A DNA stretch of 12,113 bases, from contig JAQSXN010000046.1 in NCBI GenBank assembly GCA_029256665.1, forward strand, positions 1-12,113, in the 5' to 3' direction. Below the pieces are notes generated by a model, which searched no databases, was not told where the DNA came from, and worked only from the letters and a program-made list of their open reading frames with translations. Below are positions 155-11,640 of this stretch, piece by piece. This stretch comes from Paenibacillus sp. GTDB lineage: Bacteria; Bacillota; Bacilli; Paenibacillales; Paenibacillaceae. Numbering within the stretch: position 1 is the stretch's first letter; each line of letters starts with the position of its first letter. The position numbers were made by a program, and so were the translations under genes.

Positions 155-1174
155 TTAAAACTCCACCACCGCTTTGATCACTTTCGAGGCAGGGTCCAGC
201 CATTCATCAAACGCTTCGATCATCCCGTCGAACGAGGAACGATGCGTGACGAATCGGCCCATGTCGAGCGCTCCCGTCGCCAGCACCTCAAGCACATGCT
301 CGAAGTCGGCCCGCGTCGCGTTGCGGCTGCCCATCAGCGTCAGCTCTCGCTTGTGGAATTCGGGATCCGAGAAAGCGATCTCCCCCTTCACCAGCCCAAC
401 GAACACCAGCTTGCCCCCATGCGCCGCATACTCGAAGGACTTGGCCATCGAAGCGGCGTTGCCCGTGGCGTCGAATACCGCGACTGGAAATTCGCCATCC
501 GTGAGCTCGCTTAGTCTCTGGAGCACATCGTCACCCAGCGCGACGATCGTCTCGTCCACTCCTGCCCACGAAGCGCAGAAGGCGAGCCGCTGCTCCGAAA
601 TATCCATCGCGATGACCCTTGCGCCGGCATGCCGGGCAAACGCCATGACGCCGAGTCCGATGGGACCAGACCCGATGACAAGCACCGTATCGCCCGCCGC
701 CACCTCCGCTCTTCTCACCGCATGGGCGCCAATCGCGAGCGGCTCCGCCATCGCGGCTTCGTCCAGCGTCAGCGCGTTCGCAAGAAGTAGATGTCTCACA
801 GGCACGGCGATCCGCTCGCGCATCCCGCCGTCGCGATGCACGCCGAGCACTTGCATGCTCGTACAGCAATTGCTTTTGCCCCTCCGGCAAGCCACGCATC
901 CGCCGCAATGCAGGTAAGGGAGGATAGCAACCTGATCCCCTACCGCAAAGCCCTGCGTATCATCGCCAATCGCTTCAATAACGCCGGACAGCTCATGCCC
1001 CAATATGCGGGGATATTCAAAAAACGGCTGATTGCCCTTAAACGCGTGATAATCCGTCCCGCAGATGCCGATCCGCCGGATGGCGACGATGGCGTGTCCC
1101 TCCGCGAGCTCCGGCGCGGGCAAGTCGTCCCTCATGCGGAACGTCCCCGTTTGCTCGCAAACGATTCCTTTCAT
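155..1174 (-). CDS. lgoD: Zinc-dependent L-galactonate 5-dehydrogenase-type oxidoreductase (MDR family, LgoD/YjjN-like)
   Basis: 339-residue medium-chain zinc alcohol dehydrogenase. Catalytic zinc ligands are visible as Cys38 in GICGTD and His60-Glu61 in LGHE; the structural zinc set is Cys90, Cys93, Cys96 and Cys104; the NAD(P) loop is GSGPIG at 168-173. Beyond family level, GNQPFF (47-52), FSDPEFHK (268-275) and MGSRNAT (281-287) match what I remember of E. coli LgoD (YjjN), which oxidises L-galactonate to D-tagaturonate with NAD+. It would be the third step after the L-galactose dehydrogenase and lactonase encoded just upstream; the gap to the reductase stop is only 19 bp, so it is the last gene of the operon. 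Start: ATG at 1174 with GGAGG 6 nt upstream. Alternatives are other polyol or sugar-acid dehydrogenases of the same family (RspB-like, or an L-fuconate route). Enzyme class is near certain; substrate is good inference. Confidence 0.85.
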   Translation of the reverse strand: MKGIVCEQTGTFRMRDDLPAPELAEGHAIVAIRRIGICGTDYHAFKGNQPFFEYPRILGHELSGVIEAIGDDTQGFAVGDQVAILPYLHCGGCVACRRGKSNCCTSMQVLGVHRDGGMRERIAVPVRHLLLANALTLDEAAMAEPLAIGAHAVRRAEVAAGDTVLVIGSGPIGLGVMAFARHAGARVIAMDISEQRLAFCASWAGVDETIVALGDDVLQRLSELTDGEFPVAVFDATGNAASMAKSFEYAAHGGKLVFVGLVKGEIAFSDPEFHKRELTLMGSRNATRADFEHVLEVLATGALDMGRFVTHRSSFDGMIEAFDEWLDPASKVIKAVVEF

Positions 1175-1193
1175 ATGTCCCCTCCTTCGCGAA

Positions 1194-2138
1194 TTAGGCG
1201 AAAATCCCTTTGTTGTACCGCGGCAAGCCGCTCTCCCACGTTCGGTTATGAATCGGCTTCAGCAGCTCCAGTACCTCCGCCAGAAGTTCCCGGTCCATCG
1301 GCTCGTCCGTCCAAGCCGCGTTACGCGCGATATTCACGGGGTTGGCGGTGCTGACCAACGTGGTCGGAATCCGATCATTCGACGTGGAGTACTGAATCGC
1401 CAGCTTCGCGATGTCTTCCCCCCGCTCCGCCACGAGCTCCGCTGCTTTCAGACAAACCGCCTTCAGCTCCGGATCGGCGGGATGCCAATCCGGCGTGCCG
1501 CGAGTGCTAAGCAGCCCCATCGATAGCGGCGAAGCATTGACCAGGCCGACGCCGCTCTGCTCCAGCAGCGGCAGCAGCTCCAGCAATGACGTGTCATTTA
1601 GCGAATAATGGCAATATGAAATGATGACGTCGATCTGCGCTTGCGGCAGCATCTCCTCGAACAAGGCAAGCGGCAAGCCGCAGATGCCGGCGAACCGGAT
1701 TTTGCCCTGTTCCTTCAGCCGCTGCAGCGCCGGAATCGCTTCCTCCAGAATGATGGCAGGCTCTACGAACTCGATATCGTGCAGAAACAGCATGTCGACG
1801 TAATCCGTCCGGAGCCTGCGCAAGCTCTCCTCCAGGCTCGACGCGATCCGGCCGCCCGAGAAGTCGAACGTATTCTCGCCGTAACGCCCGGCCTTCGTCG
1901 ATAGATAGAACCGGTCTCGCGAGGTCTGGGCGATCGCTTGGCCAAGCACGGTCTCGGCTTTGGTCGCTCCGTAATAAGGCGAGACGTCGATCAAGTTGAT
2001 ACCCGCGTCCAAGGCCGCATGAACGGCGCGAATCCCCTCCGCGTCATCCGTTTGCCGGAACACCGAGCCGAGCGATGACGCGCCGAAGCTCAGGCTCGAC
2101 ACGTCCAAGCCCGTATTTCCCAATTGGCGATACTTCAT
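1194..2138 (-). CDS. Aldo/keto reductase, L-galactose (or L-fucose) dehydrogenase type
   Basis: 314-residue TIM-barrel aldo/keto reductase. The catalytic tetrad is in place: Asp51 and Tyr56 (in DVSPYYG), Lys82 (STK) and His120 (LFLHDIEF). The whole chain resembles plant L-galactose dehydrogenase as I recall it: N-terminal LGNTGLDVSSLSFGASSLGSVF, central LHDIEF, IISYCHYSLNDTSLLELLP, WHPADPELK and a C-terminal TWESGL. That family oxidises L-galactose at C1 to L-galactono-lactone with NAD(P)+; bacterial relatives also act on L-fucose and D-arabinose, which share stereochemistry. It lies between the lactonase (15-bp gap) and the zinc dehydrogenase (19-bp gap), so all three are probably on one mRNA. 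Start: ATG at 2138 with GGAGGG about 8 nt upstream. No frameshift or missing residue seen. The most likely first step of the pathway. Confidence 0.87.
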   Translation of the reverse strand: MKYRQLGNTGLDVSSLSFGASSLGSVFRQTDDAEGIRAVHAALDAGINLIDVSPYYGATKAETVLGQAIAQTSRDRFYLSTKAGRYGENTFDFSGGRIASSLEESLRRLRTDYVDMLFLHDIEFVEPAIILEEAIPALQRLKEQGKIRFAGICGLPLALFEEMLPQAQIDVIISYCHYSLNDTSLLELLPLLEQSGVGLVNASPLSMGLLSTRGTPDWHPADPELKAVCLKAAELVAERGEDIAKLAIQYSTSNDRIPTTLVSTANPVNIARNAAWTDEPMDRELLAEVLELLKPIHNRTWESGLPRYNKGIFA

Positions 2139-2153
2139 CTTGATCCCTCCTTA

Positions 2154-2984
2154 TTAGAGTTTGTAAAACCGTTTGGCGTTCTCCCCAAACAGGTTCGCCC
2201 GTTCGCGATCTCCCCAGCTCCCCGGGATCGCTCCTTCCAGCAGCTCCACGACTTCGTCGTAGCTGGCCGCGAGCAGGCAGACCGGCCAATCCGTGCCGAA
2301 TATGACCCGTTCAGGCCCGAACAGCCGCAATACATGGTCGACGTAACGCTGAAAGTGCTCCGGCCGCCAATCCCGATGATCCGCCTCCGTCACCATGCCG
2401 GACAGCTTGCAATACAGGCCGGGATGCCGCGAAGCCCTCTCCATTTGGGAAGCCCACGGCTCGAACTCTCCCGCGGCGATTCTCGGCTTGCCGATATGGT
2501 CGATGACGCCTCGCAGACCGGGAACGGCGTCAAGCAGCTCGTTCAACGGCTCCAGTTGATCGGCTTTGACAAGCAGATCGACGGGCACGTCCATCGCGGC
2601 ATAAGAACGAAGCGCTTCCACGAACGAGGGTTGCAGGATGGCGCCGGCATCCTCCATATCCTGAATCATGATCCGGAAGCCGACATACTTCGGATGCTCC
2701 CGGCAACGCTCGTAATGGCTACGATGATCGGGACGGAACAAATCCAAATAGCCGACCACGCCCAGAATGCTGTCCGCCCCATCCGCCAGCGACAGCAGAT
2801 ACTCCGTTTCTTCAATGGTAGGAGCAGCCTGGACGACTATGGTTCCGTCGAGATTGTGCCGCTTCCTATGCATGTCGAGGTCTTCCGGCAAGTAATCCCG
2901 ATACAATACCGGCAGCTCCGGCGTGATCCAGCCGTAATCCGTTCGCGACATGGACCAATAATGCTGATGGGCGTCAATTCGCAT
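2154..2984 (-). CDS. Amidohydrolase-family sugar lactonase (L-galactono-/L-fucono-lactonase type)
   Basis: 276 residues, usual length for the COG3618-type lactonases of the amidohydrolase superfamily. Landmarks in order: metal-binding HQH at 6-8 right after the start (RIDAHQHYW), KLSG at 193-196, IDHIGKP with His163, and the metal-ligand Asp232 in FGTDWPV. These enzymes open 1,4- or 1,5-lactones of L-fuconate, L-galactonate or L-rhamnonate. It is the first gene of the operon; the reductase that would make its lactone follows after 15 bp and the acid dehydrogenase after that, so the expected product is L-galactonate. Start: ATG at 2984, AGGAG 11 nt upstream. No signal peptide, so cytoplasmic. 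It diverges from the AraC-type gene at 3120. Family call is strong; the specific lactone is inferred from neighbours. Confidence 0.85.
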   Translation of the reverse strand: MRIDAHQHYWSMSRTDYGWITPELPVLYRDYLPEDLDMHRKRHNLDGTIVVQAAPTIEETEYLLSLADGADSILGVVGYLDLFRPDHRSHYERCREHPKYVGFRIMIQDMEDAGAILQPSFVEALRSYAAMDVPVDLLVKADQLEPLNELLDAVPGLRGVIDHIGKPRIAAGEFEPWASQMERASRHPGLYCKLSGMVTEADHRDWRPEHFQRYVDHVLRLFGPERVIFGTDWPVCLLAASYDEVVELLEGAIPGSWGDRERANLFGENAKRFYKL

Positions 2985-3057: not shown

Positions 3058-3085
3058 GCGGTTTTATATCCGATTTTGATATATT
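3056..3085 (+). promoter_or_regulatory. Putative promoter of the first AraC-type gene
   Basis: A near-consensus -10 box TATATT (3080-3085, 5 of 6) is preceded by an 18-nt spacer and a weak -35, TTGCGG (3056-3061, only TTG matches). The leader to the TTG start at 3120 would be about 28 nt and holds GGGAGG at 3105-3110. The -35 overlaps the 3039-3057 dyad, suggesting control or autoregulation there. Predicted by eye. Confidence 0.35.
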
Positions 3086-3119: not shown

Positions 3120-3989
3120 TTGCAACCGATCCGCAAACCGTTCATGCTCGATCCGATCTTTCCGTTTGATCTCGTCTATCAAGGCATCCGGTATTCGGAG
3201 AACGAGCTGCCGGATCATCTGCACGACCTGTATGAGCTAGTCTATATTCACCGGGGGACCGGCAAATTTTTTATCGATCATACGATCTACGAGAAGGGAC
3301 CGGGCGACCTGTTCCTCATTCCCGGCAATACCGTTCATCGCGCCTTTCCCTTGGGCGACCAACCTATCGTATCCACCGCCGTCTTCTTCGCCCCTTCGCT
3401 CATGCGGAGCGACCCGCTCGGCGATGGCTATAAGCCTCTCGGCACTTTCGAGCTCGCCCGGAAGCGCAAACAATATCGGATAACGCTGGAGGAACCGGCG
3501 CGCGGCCAGTTGGAGGCATGTCTCCTCGCAATGGCGGAGGAGCTGGGCAATCGCGCTGCAGGTTACCGCCACGCGTTATGGCTTCGCCTACAGCAGCTAT
3601 TGCTGGAGCTAAGCTGGCAGCCGTTCTCGCAAGCGGAGCCGTCGACGCCATCGGCCGGCGGCTATGGTCCTCCATGGATCCGCAAGGCGCTGAGCGACAT
3701 GAACCGGGATCCCGTCGGCTGCGGCGGACTTGCGGAGCTGGCAGGCCGTGCCTCCGTCAGCGCGAGCCACTTCTCGCGCGTATTCAAGGAGCTCACGGGG
3801 ATGAACGTGACCGATTATATCAATGCCAAGCGGCTCGTGCTGGCCAAAAATTTGCTGCTCGAGACGGACGATAATATCGAGACGATCGCGCTGGCCTGCG
3901 GATACCAGGGCATGCGCCACTTTTATCAGCAATTCAAGAAATTAACGGGGCTAACGCCGAAGGCTTACCGGGATCAGACGGACGTATAG
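3120..3989 (+). CDS. AraC-family transcriptional regulator with N-terminal cupin domain
   Basis: 289 residues from a TTG start. TTG at 3120 is preferred because GGGAGG (3105-3110) lies 9 nt upstream; the same frame is open back to another TTG at 3084, but that has no comparable site and would place the ribosome binding site inside the gene. N-terminal part (to about residue 130) is a cupin-type sensor, with HLHDLYELVYIHRGTG and a PGDLFLIPGNTVHRAF strand pattern. The last 100 residues are the two-helix-turn-helix AraC domain: ASVSASHFSRVFKELTGMNV, then the second helix set in NIETIALACGYQGMRHFYQ and the closing KKLTGLTPKAYR. It is divergent from the lactonase/reductase/dehydrogenase operon, the usual setting for a sugar-responsive activator, so L-galactose, the lactone or the acid is a candidate ligand. 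The target is inferred. Confidence 0.88.
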   Translation: MQPIRKPFMLDPIFPFDLVYQGIRYSENELPDHLHDLYELVYIHRGTGKFFIDHTIYEKGPGDLFLIPGNTVHRAFPLGDQPIVSTAVFFAPSLMRSDPLGDGYKPLGTFELARKRKQYRITLEEPARGQLEACLLAMAEELGNRAAGYRHALWLRLQQLLLELSWQPFSQAEPSTPSAGGYGPPWIRKALSDMNRDPVGCGGLAELAGRASVSASHFSRVFKELTGMNVTDYINAKRLVLAKNLLLETDDNIETIALACGYQGMRHFYQQFKKLTGLTPKAYRDQTDV

Positions 3990-4010: not shown

Positions 4011-4034
4011 GCTTTCTTGTGGAGGGGGATGTCT

Positions 4035-4934
4035 GTGCCGCGCAATACGGAGGATAACCAGCAGCAGTATGACAGAGACGACATCACGAATATTCATCTG
4101 GAGAGGCATCCCGTCTATTGCGAGTTCCGGTCGGGCGATCTGCGCCGCAAGAGGCTGCACTTCCATGAGGGATACGAGGTTTATATATGCCTGGGGGGGA
4201 GCGGCTCCTATATCGTGGAGGACAAGCTGTTTCCGCTTCATGCGGGAACGCTCACCGTGATCGGACCGAACGTCGTGCATCATCCGTTCTCCAAGGAGGA
4301 CTCCGAATTCAGCCGCTATATCTTGACGATCGGCGAGCCCTATCTCGCCTCGATTGCCGCGCTCTGCGCGGGTTCGGAAGAGACCGCGCCTCCGCTTGCG
4401 AGTCTAGCTGGCGGCGGACACTATTTCTTGTCGGCATCGCAGCTTGAGCGAGCGCGCTCTGCCGCCGCGGCGATTGCCGGACGGCTTGATTTGGCGGAGT
4501 CGCAGCGCGGTCTCTCGATTCTGCACCGCGTCACGGAGCTGCTGCTCCTGATCGGCGAGCTGCGGGATGATCCGCTGTCGCAGCAGAGCGCGAGCGGTTC
4601 CCATGAAGGGCTGATTAGAGAAGTCGTCGCGTACATGACCGCTTCCTACCGCGAGCATATCTCCATTGACGGCTTGCTGGAGCGCTTCCCCCTATCGCGT
4701 TCGCAACTGCTTCATCTCTTCAAGGCGACGACCGGCTACACGGTCACGCAATTTCTTACGGAGTACCGGCTCAACAAGGCCAAATGGCTGCTCGTCGATA
4801 CCGACTTGCCCATGACCGAAATCGCGGCAAGGTCCGGCTTCGGCGATCTGTCCCACTTCTACCACCTGTTCCGCAGGGAGAGCGGCATGACCCCGAGGCA
4901 GTACCGCCAGCGGGCATTGGAGCGGCGGTCGTAA
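4035..4934 (+). CDS. Second AraC-family transcriptional regulator with cupin domain
   Basis: 299 residues from GTG at 4035. Start choice: GGAGGGGG (4021-4028) is 9 nt from GTG 4035 when measured from its GGAGG core, but only 3 nt from the in-frame ATG at 4029, so GTG is preferred. The N-terminal cupin shows LHFHEGYEVYICLGGSG and IGPNVVHHPFS, a metal-binding-like His-rich pattern around a sugar-binding barrel. The C-terminal AraC domain shows FPLSRSQLLHLFKATTGYTV, then LPMTEIAARSGFGDLSHFYH and the end motif GMTPRQYRQR. It follows the first AraC gene by 45 bp in the same direction, probably cotranscribed, but the two proteins are only distantly alike apart from domain layout, so this is not a recent tandem duplication. 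It may govern the sugar operon or the GH105/lyase genes further right. Confidence 0.87.
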   Translation: MPRNTEDNQQQYDRDDITNIHLERHPVYCEFRSGDLRRKRLHFHEGYEVYICLGGSGSYIVEDKLFPLHAGTLTVIGPNVVHHPFSKEDSEFSRYILTIGEPYLASIAALCAGSEETAPPLASLAGGGHYFLSASQLERARSAAAAIAGRLDLAESQRGLSILHRVTELLLLIGELRDDPLSQQSASGSHEGLIREVVAYMTASYREHISIDGLLERFPLSRSQLLHLFKATTGYTVTQFLTEYRLNKAKWLLVDTDLPMTEIAARSGFGDLSHFYHLFRRESGMTPRQYRQRALERRS

Positions 4935-5031: not shown

Positions 5032-5709
5032 TTACTCGCGTCTCTCTTCCCTCAGCGGCCTCACGTCCAGCGGAATAAACTCGGGGCCGGCATCGACGAG
5101 ACGCGCCTGGAACGATCCTTCGTATTCGAAGACGGTTCCGAGCAGCGGGTTGCTGACCTCCACCGTTATGCGGTACCGGTCCGCCCGGTCGTCGTACCAT
5201 TCGCAAACGTCGGCGATGCCGGTAAGGCTGGCCGGAAAGCGGAACTGCAGCAGCCCCTCGTAGAATCGCTGCTCGCCTGAACGGATGCGGATTCCCCCGT
5301 TCGAAGCGGCGGAGATTTCCAGATCGACGGCCAGATGCTGCTTGGTGCCCAGATAATCGACGATCCGGTCGCGCTCCCTGCTGTAGATCATGGTGGCGTC
5401 GAACCTTCGGATGGCGTTCGGGAATTTGAAGCTGCGGATCCAGGTCACCGTTTCGCGGCCGAACCGGTCGACGTAAGCGAAGTTCTCGATCGTAAACGGA
5501 ATGTTCCTGCCGCCCTGCGGGAACATGATGTTCCTCGTCGCCCCGGCATAGAGCGGAAGCATGGCCAGCTTGGAGAAACGAATATGCTCCATAACGCCAT
5601 GTCCGACGGAAGCGACGCGGTCCCCGCTGCCGAATCCGAACCGCTCCCGGATGCGGGGGTGGAGTTTGTGAAAGTCAGCGCCCAGCGCCTGCTCGTAAAT
5701 GGAACTCAT
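5032..5709 (-). CDS. DUF4166 domain protein
   Basis: 225 residues from ATG at 5709. The same frame is open to an upstream ATG at 5808, giving a 258-residue version, but the family-like start is MSSIYEQALGADFHKLHP, and AGGGGAG (5725-5719) sits 9 nt before ATG 5709. The chain matches the DUF4166 pattern as I know it: LHPRIRERFGFGS, an MFPQGG motif, FAYVDRFGRETVTWIR, and a C-terminal stretch on peripheral strands (EVSNPLLGTVFEYEGSF). No membrane segment or signal peptide. The biochemical role of the family is not known. In bacilli such genes often sit beside SRPBCC/DoxX-type genes; here that partner is 3.6 kb away, behind the GH105/lyase pair, yet both genes carry the same copied promoter. Confidence 0.82.
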   Translation of the reverse strand: MSSIYEQALGADFHKLHPRIRERFGFGSGDRVASVGHGVMEHIRFSKLAMLPLYAGATRNIMFPQGGRNIPFTIENFAYVDRFGRETVTWIRSFKFPNAIRRFDATMIYSRERDRIVDYLGTKQHLAVDLEISAASNGGIRIRSGEQRFYEGLLQFRFPASLTGIADVCEWYDDRADRYRITVEVSNPLLGTVFEYEGSFQARLVDAGPEFIPLDVRPLREERRE

Positions 5710-5808
5710 GCGAATCGGCTCCCCTTTTTGCTTGCTCAGACGGCCCCCTTCGCGTGCAGCAGCGTCCGGCTCGATGTCCAGTTCTGCGTAAATCGACTTC
5801 CCTCTCAT
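5710..5808 (-). pseudogene. 33-codon in-frame leader: remnant of an SRPBCC-DoxX gene start, fused to DUF4166
   Basis: Translating from ATG 5808 gives MRGKSIYAELDIEPDAAA, nearly the same as the start of the SRPBCC-DoxX protein at 10249 (MRGKPIYVELDIAADMEA). Similarity then stops, and 15 unrelated residues (REGGRLSKQKGEPIR) lead without a stop into the DUF4166 start. The initiation region (AAGGGAG, 9 nt before the ATG) is identical to that of the DoxX gene, so the leader is probably translated. Simplest reading: the body of a DoxX-type gene was deleted here, leaving its promoter and first codons joined in frame to the next gene. A leader peptide coupled to the DUF4166 start, or a functional 258-residue protein, are alternatives. 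Confidence 0.55.
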
Positions 5809-5933
5809 GCGCGCTCTCTCCCTTCCCCGTTACCGAGGCTGTTAAACCAATTGTATCGGCTACCTAGAGGACGCGGCAGTTCCAACTATTATAGGTCCGT
5901 ACGCGGCGGGGGTACTATGCGGCGTAGTACCTG
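5772..5933. repeat. 162-bp direct repeat, copy 1 (promoter, leader and first codons)
   Basis: Aligns without gaps to 10213-10374, with 7 differences in 162 bp by my count (about 96%). Read on the minus strand it holds a 19-bp near-palindrome, a TATAAT -10 box, an untranslated leader of about 75 nt, AAGGGAG, an ATG and about a dozen codons. Four of the changes fall in the non-coding part, so the sequence was conserved or copied recently. No transposase or terminal inverted repeats accompany it. Confidence 0.92.
5888..5930 (-). promoter_or_regulatory. Copied promoter with 19-bp palindromic operator (DUF4166 copy)
   Basis: Consensus TATAAT lies at 5893-5888 on the minus strand. No good -35 hexamer lies 16-18 nt upstream; instead the -35 region is covered by GTACTATGCGGCGTAGTAC (5912-5930), in which 8 of 9 base pairs about the central G are symmetrical. 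A perfect -10, absent -35 and a dyad centred near -40 suggest an activator- or repressor-controlled promoter. The dyad is fully kept in copy 2. Regulator unknown. Confidence 0.6.
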
Positions 5934-6417: not shown

Positions 6418-8148
6418 CTAATTGCTCGCTATCGGCAACCGGACGCGGCTGTTCCTCAGCCGCTCTCGCGTCTCGCCCGGCGCCACCGGAAACGTGACGG
6501 ACATCCGCCCGTCGCCGGCTCCCAGCGAAGCCCCGATCGCATCGGCGCTCTGTTCCACTACCGGCTCCGCCAGCTCTTCGCCCTCCGCAAGCAACGCTAG
6601 CTGGAACATCCAAGCCGCTTCCTTCACCTCATGGAAATCGAAATCGCGCTCTTCGCCGGCGTATAAAACATAATCCACGTACAGCGCCCGGTTATCCGCG
6701 TCCGGCACGCCGTCCGCTTCGGGATGCCCGGAATCCGCTCCGTAGCGAATATCCAGCTGCAAGCGGCCGTAATCGCTGCGCTCCGCGAGCAGTCTGACGG
6801 CAAGCTCGCGCGAGCCCAAGCCCAGCCGCATCAGCCGTCCATCGTCGCTTGTCTCCGGCGCCAGCCCCTCCCGCGCCCCGCCGATCTTGAAGCGAATCCG
6901 CAGATCGCTGCTCCGGAACCGGCCGTTGATGATATCCAGATCGGAGTGCCATGCGCCGTTATCCGTCAGCAGGTTCAATCCGAACAAGACGTCCGTGCCT
7001 GACTGCGCGCCCGCGAACATCGCCGAGCAGAAGTCCGCCCCGTCCTTCAGGAACTGCAGCTGCACGAAGCTCGTTCGGCCGTCCTCCTTCAGGTAGGCAA
7101 TCAAATTGCGCCGCTGGTTCCACATCAGGCCTTTGCTGAACGTGCCAAGCGACAAACTTTCGTTCCTATACAAAGTCGCATGGACCTGATACCCCGTCAG
7201 CTCCTCGTTCAACGTAGGCTCGGCGATGGTTCTAGTCCCTAAAGCAAGGAACAAGCGGCGATGCTCTAGCGGACAGCGGATATTTTCGCCAAACTCGAAC
7301 GTCTCGTCCAGCAGCGCCTCCTCCAGAAACTGCCGCTCGTCCGCGCGAAGCCAGGAGCTGTAGGTTCGGCTGTGCGGTCCGCTCCACTGGCCCGTTCCGG
7401 CGTGATAATGCTCGCCGGCCATTCGCCAAGCCAAGTCCATCAGCTCGTCCGCGTATCCCGCCGCTTCCAAGCTCGACGAATACGCGGAGATGCTATGCAG
7501 CTCCTTGATCGCGATCGGCGTGTAGCAAGGGCTGTTATATTCGGAGAACGTGCCGATCCCGAACGTAAAGTCGTAGAAGCGCTTGAGGCGGGCAAGCCCG
7601 TACTCGCGGAATACGTCATTGCCCAGCAGCTCTCCGCCCGCCAAAGTAACGAAAGCGCCCATAATGGCGATATTGGTGTAATGGGGACCGACATTCCGTT
7701 TCATGATCGCCCTGCACGCATGCCCGATCGCTTCCCGCACCGCGGCCGCAAGCTCCGCTCCCAGCTTTTCCTCGTGCTTGATCAGCGTGAGGATGAGACG
7801 TTTGCCATGGAAGTCCGCCATGTTCCAATCCGGCCGGTCCATCTTCTCGAGCGGCTCCTCGTAGAAGTACGGCCAGACGCCGTACGTATCGGATGCCGGA
7901 TTGCGATCCTGAAGGGGCACGACCTTCTCCAGCAAGCCGATCGCGCGCTCGATGCCCGAAGGCTCGCCCTCCTCCAGCAAATAATAGGCGTGCTCCGCGG
8001 AAGTCAGCAAAAAGTGCACCTCCGGCGTCGTTTCCCGCTTCAGCGCCGTGTGATAAGTCGCCGTCAGTTGCGTACGGATCAACCCTACGGCCTCGTCGAA
8101 CGACTCCGTCCCTTGGCGGATAACCTCCAGCAGCTTCTCCTTATTCAT
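6418..8148 (-). CDS. Large uncharacterised protein, possible (alpha/alpha)-toroid polysaccharide lyase
   Basis: 576 residues from ATG 8148, which overlaps the end of the GH105 gene by 8 bp; a longer frame from TTG 8184 is less likely. A GGAGGGGGGTGG stretch lies upstream, with GGTGG 9 nt from the ATG. I do not recognise an exact family. The first 300 residues are helical with aromatic-rich segments (VWPYFYEEP at 91-99, RNVGPHYTNIAIMG at 151-164, EYNSPCY at 203-209), and the rest looks beta-rich. That layout, with Asn, His and Tyr in conserved-looking clusters, resembles heparinase- or alginate-lyase-like toroid enzymes with a beta-sandwich tail; this is an inference. No signal peptide, so it would act inside the cell on imported oligosaccharides. 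Coupling to a GH105, which removes the unsaturated uronic acid that lyases create, supports a lyase role. Confidence 0.8.
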   Translation of the reverse strand: MNKEKLLEVIRQGTESFDEAVGLIRTQLTATYHTALKRETTPEVHFLLTSAEHAYYLLEEGEPSGIERAIGLLEKVVPLQDRNPASDTYGVWPYFYEEPLEKMDRPDWNMADFHGKRLILTLIKHEEKLGAELAAAVREAIGHACRAIMKRNVGPHYTNIAIMGAFVTLAGGELLGNDVFREYGLARLKRFYDFTFGIGTFSEYNSPCYTPIAIKELHSISAYSSSLEAAGYADELMDLAWRMAGEHYHAGTGQWSGPHSRTYSSWLRADERQFLEEALLDETFEFGENIRCPLEHRRLFLALGTRTIAEPTLNEELTGYQVHATLYRNESLSLGTFSKGLMWNQRRNLIAYLKEDGRTSFVQLQFLKDGADFCSAMFAGAQSGTDVLFGLNLLTDNGAWHSDLDIINGRFRSSDLRIRFKIGGAREGLAPETSDDGRLMRLGLGSRELAVRLLAERSDYGRLQLDIRYGADSGHPEADGVPDADNRALYVDYVLYAGEERDFDFHEVKEAAWMFQLALLAEGEELAEPVVEQSADAIGASLGAGDGRMSVTFPVAPGETRERLRNSRVRLPIASN

Positions 8149-9202
8149 AACTTGTCGCCACCCCCCTCCTGATCGCTTCGGCAAGCAGCATCAGCGTTAA
8201 TCCCTGCCCGTACAACGTCGGGTAGACCGGAATTTCGTTGTACGCCTCTACCGATTCCATGACGGGCGTTCCGCCGGAAACCCCTCCGACGACGCCGTTA
8301 TCCCCAATGTACGGCAAAATAGCGCGAACCGCCCTACCCGCGGACTCCTCGTATCTTGCTTCGTCAGGCAGCAGGCCCAAGTCCATCCCCAGCCAAAAGC
8401 CGCAAGCGATGCCCGCGCTGCCGGATACCTCCCTATAAAAGTCCGGTACGTCCATCACCGTGCTCCAAAGCCCGTCTTCTTGCTGGAACCCGGCAAGTCC
8501 GGCCATCATTCGGCCATACCGCTCGCGCAGCTCGGCTTCGACCGGCACGAGGTCCGCGATCTCTTGCACGATCATCGGCACGCCCACCGCGATCCAGGCG
8601 TTCGCGCGCGTCCACCTTGCCGCGGACATATGGTCTCCCGCCGCGCAATTCCAGCCGTGGAACAGCACGCCCGTCCCCGGGTCCTCCAGCAATTGCAGAT
8701 GAAGCAGCGCTTGCCGCTGCGCCTCCGCCGCATAAGCCGCGTTGCCGAGCATCGACGCCGTTCTCGCCAGGAACAGCACCGCCATAAAGATCGTGTCCGC
8801 CCACACCTGCTCCGCAAACGCCACGTTTTCCGTAACCGTATGCTCGAATGCTTCTTCGCGAGTGCGCGGCGCCTGCTCTACTAACCAATTCGCGACGCGT
8901 TCCGCCTCGTCCTTGAACCAGACATCTCCCGTCTCCCGGTACAACGCGGGAAAAATCGCGTAAGGCGCCACCGCGTTAATGACGGGCTCGGGAGCGGCCT
9001 TCCCTTTGTTGCGTCCCACCCACTCGGCCAGAAAAGCCAGAACCTCCGGCTCCTTTGCCTTCTCCGCGTACTCCAACAACGCGATGACGCCAACGCCGGG
9101 CACCCAATCCCACTTATGGATGTCCATTCCCCAGTTGCCGGAGTGATCCCGCACCATCTGGCGCCATACCTTATTCGCTATCGCTTCCATTCGTTTCCCC
9201 AC
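8141..9202 (-). CDS. GH105/GH88-type unsaturated uronyl hydrolase
   Basis: 353 residues (GTG 9202, AGGAG 6 nt upstream; ATG 9190 gives 349 and is also possible). The (alpha/alpha)6-barrel signature of YteR-like enzymes is present: WADTIFM with the likely catalytic Asp136, LFHGWN at 180-185, RWTRANAW at 196-203, SGSAGIACGFW at 260-270 and PTLYGQGLTLMLLAEA near the end. Such enzymes hydrate the double bond of unsaturated glucuronyl or galacturonyl ends left by lyases. At the place where YteR has a second Asp, this protein reads PVINAVAPY, without Asp; I believe some relatives share this, so it may mark a subfamily rather than loss of activity. No signal peptide. Its end overlaps the next gene by 8 bp, implying translational coupling. 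Upstream, 114 bp separate it from the DoxX gene. Confidence 0.86.
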   Translation of the reverse strand: MGKRMEAIANKVWRQMVRDHSGNWGMDIHKWDWVPGVGVIALLEYAEKAKEPEVLAFLAEWVGRNKGKAAPEPVINAVAPYAIFPALYRETGDVWFKDEAERVANWLVEQAPRTREEAFEHTVTENVAFAEQVWADTIFMAVLFLARTASMLGNAAYAAEAQRQALLHLQLLEDPGTGVLFHGWNCAAGDHMSAARWTRANAWIAVGVPMIVQEIADLVPVEAELRERYGRMMAGLAGFQQEDGLWSTVMDVPDFYREVSGSAGIACGFWLGMDLGLLPDEARYEESAGRAVRAILPYIGDNGVVGGVSGGTPVMESVEAYNEIPVYPTLYGQGLTLMLLAEAIRRGVATSYE

Positions 9203-9316: not shown

Positions 9317-10249
9317 TCATTTCGATCGCAAAACGGAATCTGGCGGCATCCTTCGTTTGCAGCGTCCGGCGCTGGGCAAATCCGTGGCCGTCCGAGAGGC
9401 GATATAGGCCAGCGCCAGCATCGGAACGCTCAGCGTGACGGGGTTGAACGGCGATGCCGGAAGCGCTGGCGCCGCGGCAATCGCGGCGATGGCCAGGCTG
9501 ACAAGCAGCAGGCTCTGAATGCCATAGAGCGACTTGCTCCGATGTCCGACGAGAATGGCGACGGCGAGAACGATCTCCGCGAGCCCCAGCAGGCGGAGCG
9601 TGGCGCTTTCGGCCGCCGCGGGTACCATCGCCGCCGCGCGGAGCAGCTGCAGCTCGCCCCCTTGCGGGAATAGCAGCTTGGGCACAATCCCTTGATATAG
9701 CCAAAGGAACGTCAGCGTCAGGACGCAGACGTAATGGATTGCCGCTCGCTGCAGCGTGACGGCTGGCGCGATGCCTCGCTCCAGCCAGATGCGCAGCATA
9801 TCGAAGCTCCAGGCGGTCGCATAGCCGAACATCGGGCGGAACACGAGCGTATCCAGCAGCCTGCCGAGCGCTCCGAACCGCGTCGCGTAATCGAATTTGG
9901 TGCTGAAGGCGACGCCTTGCCCCTTCGGCCGGTAGCGCCAATAGCCGCCTCCCCGCCGGATCAACGAGATTCGCTGCTCGGAGCCGAACGCCAGCGTGGA
10001 GATGCCTTCGCCCGTCACGGCAGACCTTGCCGATTTGGACTCCCCGGTGCCCGAGATGTCGAGGCCGAAGCCGATGCGCGTCCGATAGAGGAAACGTTGG
10101 GGCTCCTCCGGCGCCTCCCGCGGCAAATAGTCGATTTCGGTGAAGCGCAGATCCCATTGCCGGTGCAGCTGGGGATTCTGCGTATGCTCCCATATAGCCT
10201 CCATGTCGGCGGCGATGTCCAGTTCTACGTAGATCGGCTTCCCTCTCAT
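9317..10249 (-). CDS. SRPBCC - DoxX-like fusion membrane protein
   Basis: 310 residues. Residues 1 to about 150 look like an SRPBCC-type lipid/ligand-binding fold (MRGKPIYVELDIAADMEAIWEHTQNPQLHRQWD is spread over 1-33), and the second half is a four-helix DoxX-like membrane domain, with hydrophobic segments near 170-188, 216-235, 243-262 and 270-286. The ending TATDLPSAGRC and following basic tail is the normal end of this family, so the gene looks complete. Start: ATG 10249 with AAGGGAG 9 nt upstream. The function of the family is not established; DoxX domains occur in redox-linked membrane proteins. Its promoter and first codons are the second copy of the 162-bp repeat. It may be cotranscribed with GH105, but no functional link is evident. 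Confidence 0.83.
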   Translation of the reverse strand: MRGKPIYVELDIAADMEAIWEHTQNPQLHRQWDLRFTEIDYLPREAPEEPQRFLYRTRIGFGLDISGTGESKSARSAVTGEGISTLAFGSEQRISLIRRGGGYWRYRPKGQGVAFSTKFDYATRFGALGRLLDTLVFRPMFGYATAWSFDMLRIWLERGIAPAVTLQRAAIHYVCVLTLTFLWLYQGIVPKLLFPQGGELQLLRAAAMVPAAAESATLRLLGLAEIVLAVAILVGHRSKSLYGIQSLLLVSLAIAAIAAAPALPASPFNPVTLSVPMLALAYIASRTATDLPSAGRCKRRMPPDSVLRSK

Positions 10250-10374
10250 GCGCGCTCTCTCCCTTCCCCGTTACCGAGGCTGTTAAACCAATTGTATCGG
10301 CTGCCTAGAGGACGCGGCAGTTCCAACTATTATAGGTCCGTGCGCCGCGGGGGTACTATGCGGCGTAGTACTTG
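10213..10374. repeat. 162-bp direct repeat, copy 2
   Basis: Gap-free match to 5772-5933. This copy precedes an intact SRPBCC-DoxX gene and includes its first codons, so it is probably the parental version, while copy 1 heads only a remnant. Similarity ends about 14 codons into the gene on one side and just past the palindrome on the other. Recombination between the copies would remove 4,441 bp, including the DoxX, GH105 and lyase-like genes. Confidence 0.92.
10329..10371 (-). promoter_or_regulatory. Copied promoter with 19-bp palindromic operator (DoxX copy)
   Basis: TATAAT at 10334-10329 and GTACTATGCGGCGTAGTAC at 10353-10371, the same arrangement as copy 1. The two differences between copies in this stretch lie between the dyad and the -10 box; the dyad itself is identical. 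No TTGACA-like -35 is present on the minus strand. Transcription would give an untranslated leader of about 75 nt before the DoxX start. Confidence 0.6.
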
Positions 10375-10507: not shown

Positions 10508-10873
10508 TTAATGTTTTCCAAACCCATCCTCGCACGTAATATCCGACTCAAGAATTTCGTATAAGTTTTTTTTGGAAGTATCTAATTTTTTTTGAGCGTC
10601 TTCTATTTCCGATATTTTTTCTTTAATGATGCGTGTTTGCTCGTCTTTTGACATTCCGTTTTTCAAGATCATAGCTTTAATATCATTGATTGAAAAACCG
10701 ACAGCTAAACAATTTTTTACAACGTCTAAATGATGAGTAACTTCTTCCGTATAATCCCGGTAATTATTCAGTTCTCTCCGTATGAACTCGTCCGTAATAA
10801 TGCCTATTTTCTCATAGTAACGAATAGTTGATATCGGAAGGTCAACTCTTTTCGCGACTTCGCTTATCTTCAT
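10508..10873 (-). CDS. MerR-family transcriptional regulator
   Basis: 121 residues from ATG 10873 (GAGGGG 6 nt upstream). The frame is open to 10933, but the extra 20 codons would cover the promoter, and MerR proteins start as here, MKISEVAKRVDLPISTIRYYEK. Residues 1-70 are the winged helix-turn-helix (RYYEKIGII, YRDYTEE, GFSINDI), and 75-110 a dimerising coiled coil; the C-terminal effector part is very short. Two cysteines are present, Cys55 and Cys114; Cys55 lies one position off the redox/aldehyde-sensing Cys of AdhR/NmlR in my hand alignment, so thiol sensing is possible but unproven. It is divergent from a nitroreductase, which fits an electrophile or redox stress switch. Strongly AT-rich codon use, unlike the genes to its left. 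Confidence 0.87.
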   Translation of the reverse strand: MKISEVAKRVDLPISTIRYYEKIGIITDEFIRRELNNYRDYTEEVTHHLDVVKNCLAVGFSINDIKAMILKNGMSKDEQTRIIKEKISEIEDAQKKLDTSKKNLYEILESDITCEDGFGKH

Positions 10874-10912
10874 ATTAATCCCCTCAGTGCTTGCTATTGC
10901 TATAAAGTATAC

Positions 10913-10944
10913 TTCATAGTTTACACTATTCATAGTGAGGTCAA
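10913..10944 (-). promoter_or_regulatory. MerR-type promoter with dyad in an overlong spacer
   Basis: On the minus strand TTGACC (10944-10939) and a -10-like TATGAA (10918-10913) are 20 nt apart (19 if CTATGA is used), longer than the usual 17. Within the spacer lies the perfect inverted repeat CACTAT-TC-ATAGTG (10924-10937). A dyad inside a 19-20-nt spacer is the hallmark of MerR-controlled promoters. Here it drives the MerR gene itself; the nitroreductase start is 46 nt away on the other side, so binding could serve both. Confidence 0.65.
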
Positions 10945-10989
10945 ACGAACAGAGCTCACGGCTAATATAGATAAAGGAGAGAACATTAC

Positions 10990-11640
10990 ATGAGCACTAT
11001 TGTCAGAGAATTCCACAAAACCAACAATTTTAATGAAATCGTCTTGGAGCGCCGTTCGGTTAAAGTTTACGATCCGGAAGTGAAAATTAGCCGGGAAGAA
11101 ATGACCGAAATATTAGCGGAAGCTTCCCGTGCTCCTTCTGCCATTAACATGCAGCCATGGAGATTTCTTGTTATAGACAGCGCTGAAGGCAAAGAAAAAC
11201 TTGCGCCGCTGGCTTCCTTTAACCAGACGCAAGCTCTGACTTCCTCGGCTGTCATTGCGGTATTTTACGATGCTAACAACATTGAATATATCGACGAGAT
11301 TTTTGGCAAAGCTGTGGAACACGGGTACATGTCAGAGGACATCATGGACATGCAGTTGCGACAAGCGAAACCTTATTATGCGAACATGTCCGCATCCGAG
11401 CTGCGAGACATGAACCTGATCGACTCGGGTCTCGTATCCATGCAACTCATGCTTGTTGCACGCGCCCATGGATATGACACTAACCCGATGGCCGGATATG
11501 ATAAAGAACGAATTGCTGAGGCTTTTGGACTTAATAAAGACCGGTTCCAACCGGTTATGTTGATCTCGATCGGAAAGGCAGCCAAAGAAGGCTATCCTTC
11601 CTACCGCCTGCCCGTTGAAACGATTGCTACTTGGGCATAA
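10990..11640 (+). CDS. Nitroreductase-family NAD(P)H-dependent FMN oxidoreductase
   Basis: 216 residues, ATG 10990 with AAAGGAG 10 nt upstream. The FMN-binding start ERRSVKVYD (about 19-27) is followed by the family's signature ASRAPSAINMQPWRFLVI (about 46-63), and a late GYDTNPMAGYD loop and LISIGKA end strand complete the fold. These homodimeric flavoenzymes reduce quinones, nitro compounds or similar electrophiles with NAD(P)H; closest in style are bacillar YdgI/YodC/MhqN proteins, but I cannot choose among them. Divergent from the MerR-type gene, its probable regulator, and followed by its own terminator, so it is a single-gene unit. Less GC-rich than the sugar genes. Confidence 0.9.
   Translation: MSTIVREFHKTNNFNEIVLERRSVKVYDPEVKISREEMTEILAEASRAPSAINMQPWRFLVIDSAEGKEKLAPLASFNQTQALTSSAVIAVFYDANNIEYIDEIFGKAVEHGYMSEDIMDMQLRQAKPYYANMSASELRDMNLIDSGLVSMQLMLVARAHGYDTNPMAGYDKERIAEAFGLNKDRFQPVMLISIGKAAKEGYPSYRLPVETIATWA

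Follow-up and report, generated by a model that had tools for sequence, protein, structure and literature searches.

We identify, in a 12,113-bp Paenibacillus contig (C593, analyzed whole and referred to here as the window), three packed minus-strand genes that very probably constitute a catabolic operon leading from L-galactose to D-tagaturonate. An aldo/keto reductase would oxidize L-galactose at C1 to the lactone, an amidohydrolase acting as lactonase would open the lactone to L-galactonate, and an LgoD-like dehydrogenase would oxidize L-galactonate at C5 to D-tagaturonate. This route had been proposed in an initial annotation of the window; it is supported by the gene identities and, more strongly, by the relatives in which a tagaturonate reductase gene (uxaB) and uxaA lie inside the same operon (24 of 43 genomes). 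Judged from these comparisons, the pathway in the window is a known one whose setting here is widespread and modular.

Identities of the operon genes

The source genome (4.14 Mb in 630 contigs, 63.9% complete) carries the operon and its upstream region at one end of the contig:

155–1174, minus strand: zinc dehydrogenase of the LgoD type (ADH_N/ADH_zinc_N), predicted L-galactonate 5-dehydrogenase
1194–2138, minus strand: aldo/keto reductase (Aldo_ket_red), predicted L-galactose 1-dehydrogenase
2154–2984, minus strand: COG3618-type lactonase (PF04909, Amidohydro_2, 163.7 bits), predicted L-galactono-lactonase; first gene of the operon, as in most relatives
3065–3080, minus strand: operator-like site ATCAAAATCGGATATA, 96 bp upstream of the lactonase start
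3144–3989, plus strand: AraC-family gene (AraC_binding and HTH_18, scanned from 3111), candidate operon regulator, divergent from the operon as in most relatives; 3144 is the first ATG, and a TTG further upstream at 3084 is a possible start

Gaps of 15 bp (lactonase/reductase) and 19 bp (reductase/dehydrogenase) separate the three open reading frames (ORFs), and the same cluster recurs in relatives, which confirms the three genes first annotated. The accompanying statement that the operon is complete for one route and holds no other gene could not be confirmed: the contig begins 154 bp beyond the dehydrogenase stop codon, the region downstream of the operon lies outside the contig, and the operon of relatives is often longer. 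The assembly of the relative G001 also breaks near the operon 3′ end, its contig C288 ending inside the dehydrogenase gene (L173, about 16609).

All Pfam assignments of the three enzymes, including that of the lactonase, exceeded the cut-off. When the reductase was compared with PDB sequences, the five top matches (290–341 bits) were all named L-galactose dehydrogenase and the sixth scored 126 bits, which ranks L-galactose dehydrogenases, by a margin of about 165 bits, as closer to the protein than any other structurally known aldo/keto reductase and confirms the resemblance noted at the outset. The best named match was from Paenibacillus agaridevorans T-3040 (86% identical), whose operon has the three-gene form and in which no uxaB was found. 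A scan of genome contigs returned Paenibacillus orthologues together with distant reductases. The motifs GNQPFF, FSDPEFHK, and MGSRNAT, initially cited as LgoD-specific, are all present in the window dehydrogenase and in Escherichia coli LgoD (L-galactonate oxidoreductase, NC_000913 b4358) and all absent from E. coli RspB. Consistent with this grouping, the window protein is 42.4% identical to LgoD and 30.7% identical to RspB.

Three observations weigh against these assignments. All three dehydrogenase motifs, with the third searched as MGSRNA, were found in just 6 of the 13 relatives' dehydrogenases checked; the motifs are thus common to relatives but not strictly conserved. The dehydrogenase also scores only 210.4 bits against PRK10083, its best NCBIfam model, short of the 376-bit cut-off; that model describes Zn-dependent oxidoreductases in general and is not specific to LgoD. 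Finally, the sole curated match of the lactonase is an L-fucono-1,5-lactonase model, at 229.8 bits and under its 400-bit cut-off.

The operon in the genus and family

The genus sample comprised 51 genomes, the window's own (G000) included. The reductase (E ≤ 1e-50) was found in 43 of them, as was a lactonase homologue (E ≤ 1e-40), some of the latter distant. We mapped the operon in the 42 other reductase-positive genomes, giving n = 43 with the window's own. The order lactonase–uxaB–uxaA–reductase–dehydrogenase accounts for the 24 genomes mentioned above; members of the genus thus most often have a five-gene operon, of which the three-gene form is a short variant. In six genomes the three-gene form is accompanied by uxaB–uxaA at another locus (G019, G005, G027, G049, G015, and G020), and in four, including the window's own, no uxaB was found above the cut-off (G000, G001, G040, and G045). 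A further seven have the order reductase–dehydrogenase–lactonase–GH95. G044 carries reductase–dehydrogenase followed about 3.4 kb further by lactonase–GH95, and G014 carries reductase–lactonase, with the dehydrogenase adjoining a detached uxaB–uxaA pair. A GH95 gene adjoins the operon in 10 of the 43; the contigs of the window's genome and of G001 end before that position.

Two scanned operons underlie the names uxaB and uxaA. The uxaB products scored 564 and 579 bits with the NCBIfam tagaturonate reductase model, whose cut-off is 359, while uxaA matched Pfam GD_AH_C in one operon and the NCBIfam galactarate dehydratase model, below its cut-off, in both; we infer from family and neighbor that uxaA encodes altronate dehydratase. 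Across the genus sample, 39 of the 43 genomes with the reductase, and none of the eight without it, had a uxaB above the cut-off. A tagaturonate-using enzyme is thus linked to the operon in relatives only, and none is visible in the operon of the window. In most relatives, tagaturonate would pass onward through UxaB and UxaA by way of altronate. Where uxaB is detached in the six-genome split group, an AraC gene diverges from it in five (44–100% like that of G019, the 100% being G019 itself); no AraC gene was seen at the detached uxaB locus of G020.

Family-wide, 214 of 394 genomes, spread over 13 of 19 genera, carry the reductase (E ≤ 1e-90). Among 19 reductase-positive genomes looked at outside the genus, four hold the five-gene operon (G056, G126, G346, and G310) and nine lactonase–reductase–dehydrogenase, a form that also stands behind fucU and UxaE genes in G326. 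Another four have reductase–dehydrogenase with no lactonase seen, and at the G349 locus no dehydrogenase was seen. One genus member, G045, carries an intact three-gene operon and, elsewhere, near a contig end (G045:C65, L041 4548–7990), a second, five-gene copy in which the lactonase is intact and uxaB, uxaA, and the reductase are in pieces.

A shared operator-like site

The pattern ATCAWAANNRRRYAYA was drawn by side-by-side reading of upstream regions, from part of the sequences later scanned. It occurs once in the window, at 3065–3080 on the minus strand, and was absent from 200 shuffled versions. In 102 relatives' loci (1,312,754 bp) there were 34 matches, all 69–267 bp upstream of operon-related genes: the lactonase gene in 29 cases, uxaB in four, and fucU–lactonase in one. 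In the first 40 loci the real pattern matched 16 times, compared with 0.64 times on average and 6 at most for column-permuted versions, and 62 other loci (730,202 bp) gave a single match. Because the pattern derives from part of the same sequences, the near absence of matches elsewhere carries more weight; three of the genomes, G272, G392, and G326, had no part in drawing it. The pattern matched three times among 18 named operon loci, always in the interval that separates the AraC gene from the operon; the P. agaridevorans locus already used supplied one of the three. The exact pattern is absent from 11 of 37 lactonase upstream regions examined and, among 15 genomes with a detached uxaB, is found at that gene in only four (G019, G027, G044, and G014).

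The 3065–3080 site is the probable point of action of the divergent AraC protein. The distribution of matches suggests that the AraC proteins encoded at the operon and at detached uxaB–uxaA loci bind related candidate sites, and a split operon could therefore stay co-regulated. The search for a tagaturonate reductase near or co-regulated with the operon, advised in the initial annotation, thus had a positive outcome in relatives, with uxaB inside the operon or, at some detached loci, behind an operator-like site. A second AraC gene (4017–4934) lies beside the first in the window; among the mapped operons it has a close counterpart (66–67%) only in G001.

Fate of tagaturonate in the window's lineage

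The four genomes that combine the three-gene operon with no uxaB above the cut-off are the window's own, G001 (97% complete), G040 (99%), and G045 (99%). A protein of the tagaturonate–fructuronate epimerase family (UxaE) scored above the cut-off in exactly these four of the 51 genomes, with a PF16257 match of 656 bits in the window's genome. The chance of four random genomes among the 43 coinciding is 1 in 123,410, a hand calculation on genomes that are related. UxuA, searched for in these four, is present in all of them, and in the window's genome it adjoins an SDR-family D-mannonate oxidoreductase (438 bits, cut-off 281). The uxaA family (GD_AH_C) was not found in the window's genome or in G001. 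Tagaturonate in this lineage would thus probably be converted to fructuronate by UxaE, and then by UxuB and UxuA to 2-keto-3-deoxygluconate (KDG).

In an rpoB DNA tree, G001 and G045 were joined (99), with G040 apart at weak nodes (77 and 41). The UxaE state likely arose in two events, as these sequences place the genomes; independent origins were not accepted as established, the rpoB protein tree being unresolved and the DNA tree nodes weak.

Outside the genus, UxaE in G326 lies 216 bp upstream of fucU–lactonase–reductase–dehydrogenase on one strand. An operator match sits between UxaE and fucU, and UxaE may for that reason have its own promoter. G052 also encodes UxaE, and its operon is of the three-gene form, with no uxaB among its genes. 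The G326 stretch (G326:C3, L290 2229–11820) reads, on one strand, SDR, LarA-like, gluconokinase-like FGGY kinase, LarE, UxaE, FucU-type mutarotase, lactonase, reductase, and dehydrogenase; its Lar-type genes hint at further sugar-acid epimerization.

Based on these patterns, we propose a fixed three-enzyme head with two interchangeable tails, an altronate tail of UxaB–UxaA and a mannonate tail of UxaE–UxuB–UxuA. The uxaB–uxaA pair would move in and out of the operon, retaining its AraC operator in some genomes; the epimerase tail would be the one used in the window's lineage. We give this model an even chance, a lower one than it would otherwise have because G040 and G045 each keep an intact uxaA-family protein of about 400 aa (G045 also has broken pieces); a uxaA-family protein of this size also occurs beside the approximately 510-aa uxaA in other genomes. 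Several further findings count against UxaE as the exit: the incomplete genome of the window makes its lack of uxaB, taken alone, say little; no operator pattern was found at the UxaE loci of G000, G001, and G040; and, of the 10 genomes in the family with UxaE, 4 (G063, G219, G329, and G393) have no reductase, which also rules out UxaE as a general marker of the operon. These findings leave a substantial, if smaller than even, chance that the tagaturonate pathway runs as proposed while UxaE serves only pectin (galacturonate) use, or that an unrecognized reductase acts in its place, or that uxaB is missing from the assemblies. Against this stand the equal lack of a uxaB above the cut-off in the three near-complete genomes, the joint presence of UxaE and UxuA in all four, and the position of UxaE upstream of the operon in G326.

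Relation to known pathways and alternative substrates

Hobbs et al. (2014) reportedly described an L-galactose pathway, lactonase step included, in Phocaeicola (Bacteroides) vulgatus. By description it shares the three predicted steps from L-galactose to D-tagaturonate; it belongs to another phylum, whereas the Paenibacillus operon is AraC-linked and often accompanied by uxaB–uxaA or GH95. The P. vulgatus pathway, assigned to BVU_0219 to BVU_0222, is cited in PMC12632266. The E. coli route, in contrast, begins at L-galactonate, and neither a reductase nor a lactonase adjoins lgoD.

PMC12632266 describes the L-glucose/L-galactose pathway of Luteolibacter sp. LG18 (lguABCDEF), where L-galactose dehydrogenase, L-galactonate dehydrogenase, tagaturonate reductase, and altronate dehydratase stand together with a divergent regulator. 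That cluster includes a KDPG aldolase, and LguG, a 5-keto-L-gluconate 4-epimerase encoded elsewhere, permits L-glucose use; the authors found no organism with the six orthologues but without the 4-epimerase (PMC12632266). Its main text names no lactonase, whereas the window has a lactonase and no uxaA or uxaB in the visible operon.

The Luteolibacter pathway raises L-glucose and L-gluconate as alternative substrates, since LguA and LguD take both sugars or acids (PMC12632266). We consider this improbable for the window: LguA itself prefers L-galactose 40-fold, and L-glucose is presumed absent from nature (PMC12632266). Least probable of all is oxidation of L-fucose (or D-arabinose), with the reductase acting on L-fucose, the lactonase releasing L-fuconate, and the dehydrogenase acting on that 6-deoxy acid: the L-fucono-1,5-lactonase match, the neighboring GH95 genes (a family mostly of fucosidases) and, mildly, the FucU-type (L-fucose mutarotase) gene that opens the G326 operon favor it, but the lactonase match is below its cut-off, LguA of Luteolibacter, a relative by cluster, is inactive on L-fucose (PMC12632266), and the uxaB–uxaA linkage disfavors it because a 6-deoxy acid cannot give tagaturonate.

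The initial annotation had called the occurrence of such a pathway in a Paenibacillus-like genome little described. As regards the literature this stands: no L-galactose pathway in Paenibacillus appeared among the titles and abstract openings listed for L-galactose with Paenibacillus, Bacillus, or catabolism, a scope that takes in few subscription papers. In the main text of PMC12632266, Bacillota come up a single time, in connection with LguA relatives, and Paenibacillus does not come up at all; PMC5069468, in the part available, deals with 3,6-anhydro-L-galactose. As regards the genomes, the operon is common.

UxaE of Thermotoga maritima was reportedly characterized by Rodionova et al. (2012). 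It is presented in part of PMC6353982 as joining two hexuronate routes, galacturonate and glucuronate, whereas here UxaE is proposed as an exit of L-galactose catabolism. An epimerase tail for L-galactose is apparently undescribed before.

Significance

L-galactose is a rare plant and algal sugar that occurs in red-algal galactans. The chemistry of its degradation is known from other bacteria, and the trait may be common, given the reductase in more than half of the family genomes. Passages in PMC6353982 and PMC4491172 place L-galactose in rhamnogalacturonan II and in corn xylan, respectively.

With its one head and two tails, the gene set lends itself to testing pathway modularity, and the proposed exchange of UxaB–UxaA for UxaE in the window's lineage is the new point most readily tested. 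The set also provides a candidate operator for AraC whose targets are clear, and the adjacent GH95 genes are candidate α-L-galactosidases. GH95 comprises fucosidases and an α-L-galactosidase, and its proposed Thr/His determinant appears unreliable from the relevant parts of PMC4491172, PMC10063614, and PMC8245568. The operon GH95 of G019 has Thr at that position in an alignment read by eye; this was not taken as proof of L-galactosidase activity, as PMC8245568, in part, reports a strict fucosidase with Thr there.

Other features of the window

A 162-nt direct repeat (96% identical; 5772–5933 and 10213–10374) spans the starts of a DUF4166 ORF (5032–5808) and a DoxX_3 ORF (9317–10249). These two genes are directly adjacent in G001 and about 3.5 kb apart in the window, with a GH88/105-like gene between them; the interval may reflect an insertion, a rearrangement, or an assembly fault. 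Within it, 8141–9202 encodes a Glyco_hydro_88 protein (nearest NCBIfam name BglB, 263 vs 420 bits), and the gene that follows, at 6418–8184, encodes a protein of 588 aa that matched neither Pfam nor NCBIfam at 0.001. At 10508–11640, a MerR-looking ORF on the minus strand diverges from a nitroreductase-looking ORF on the plus strand, both candidate names given by eye.

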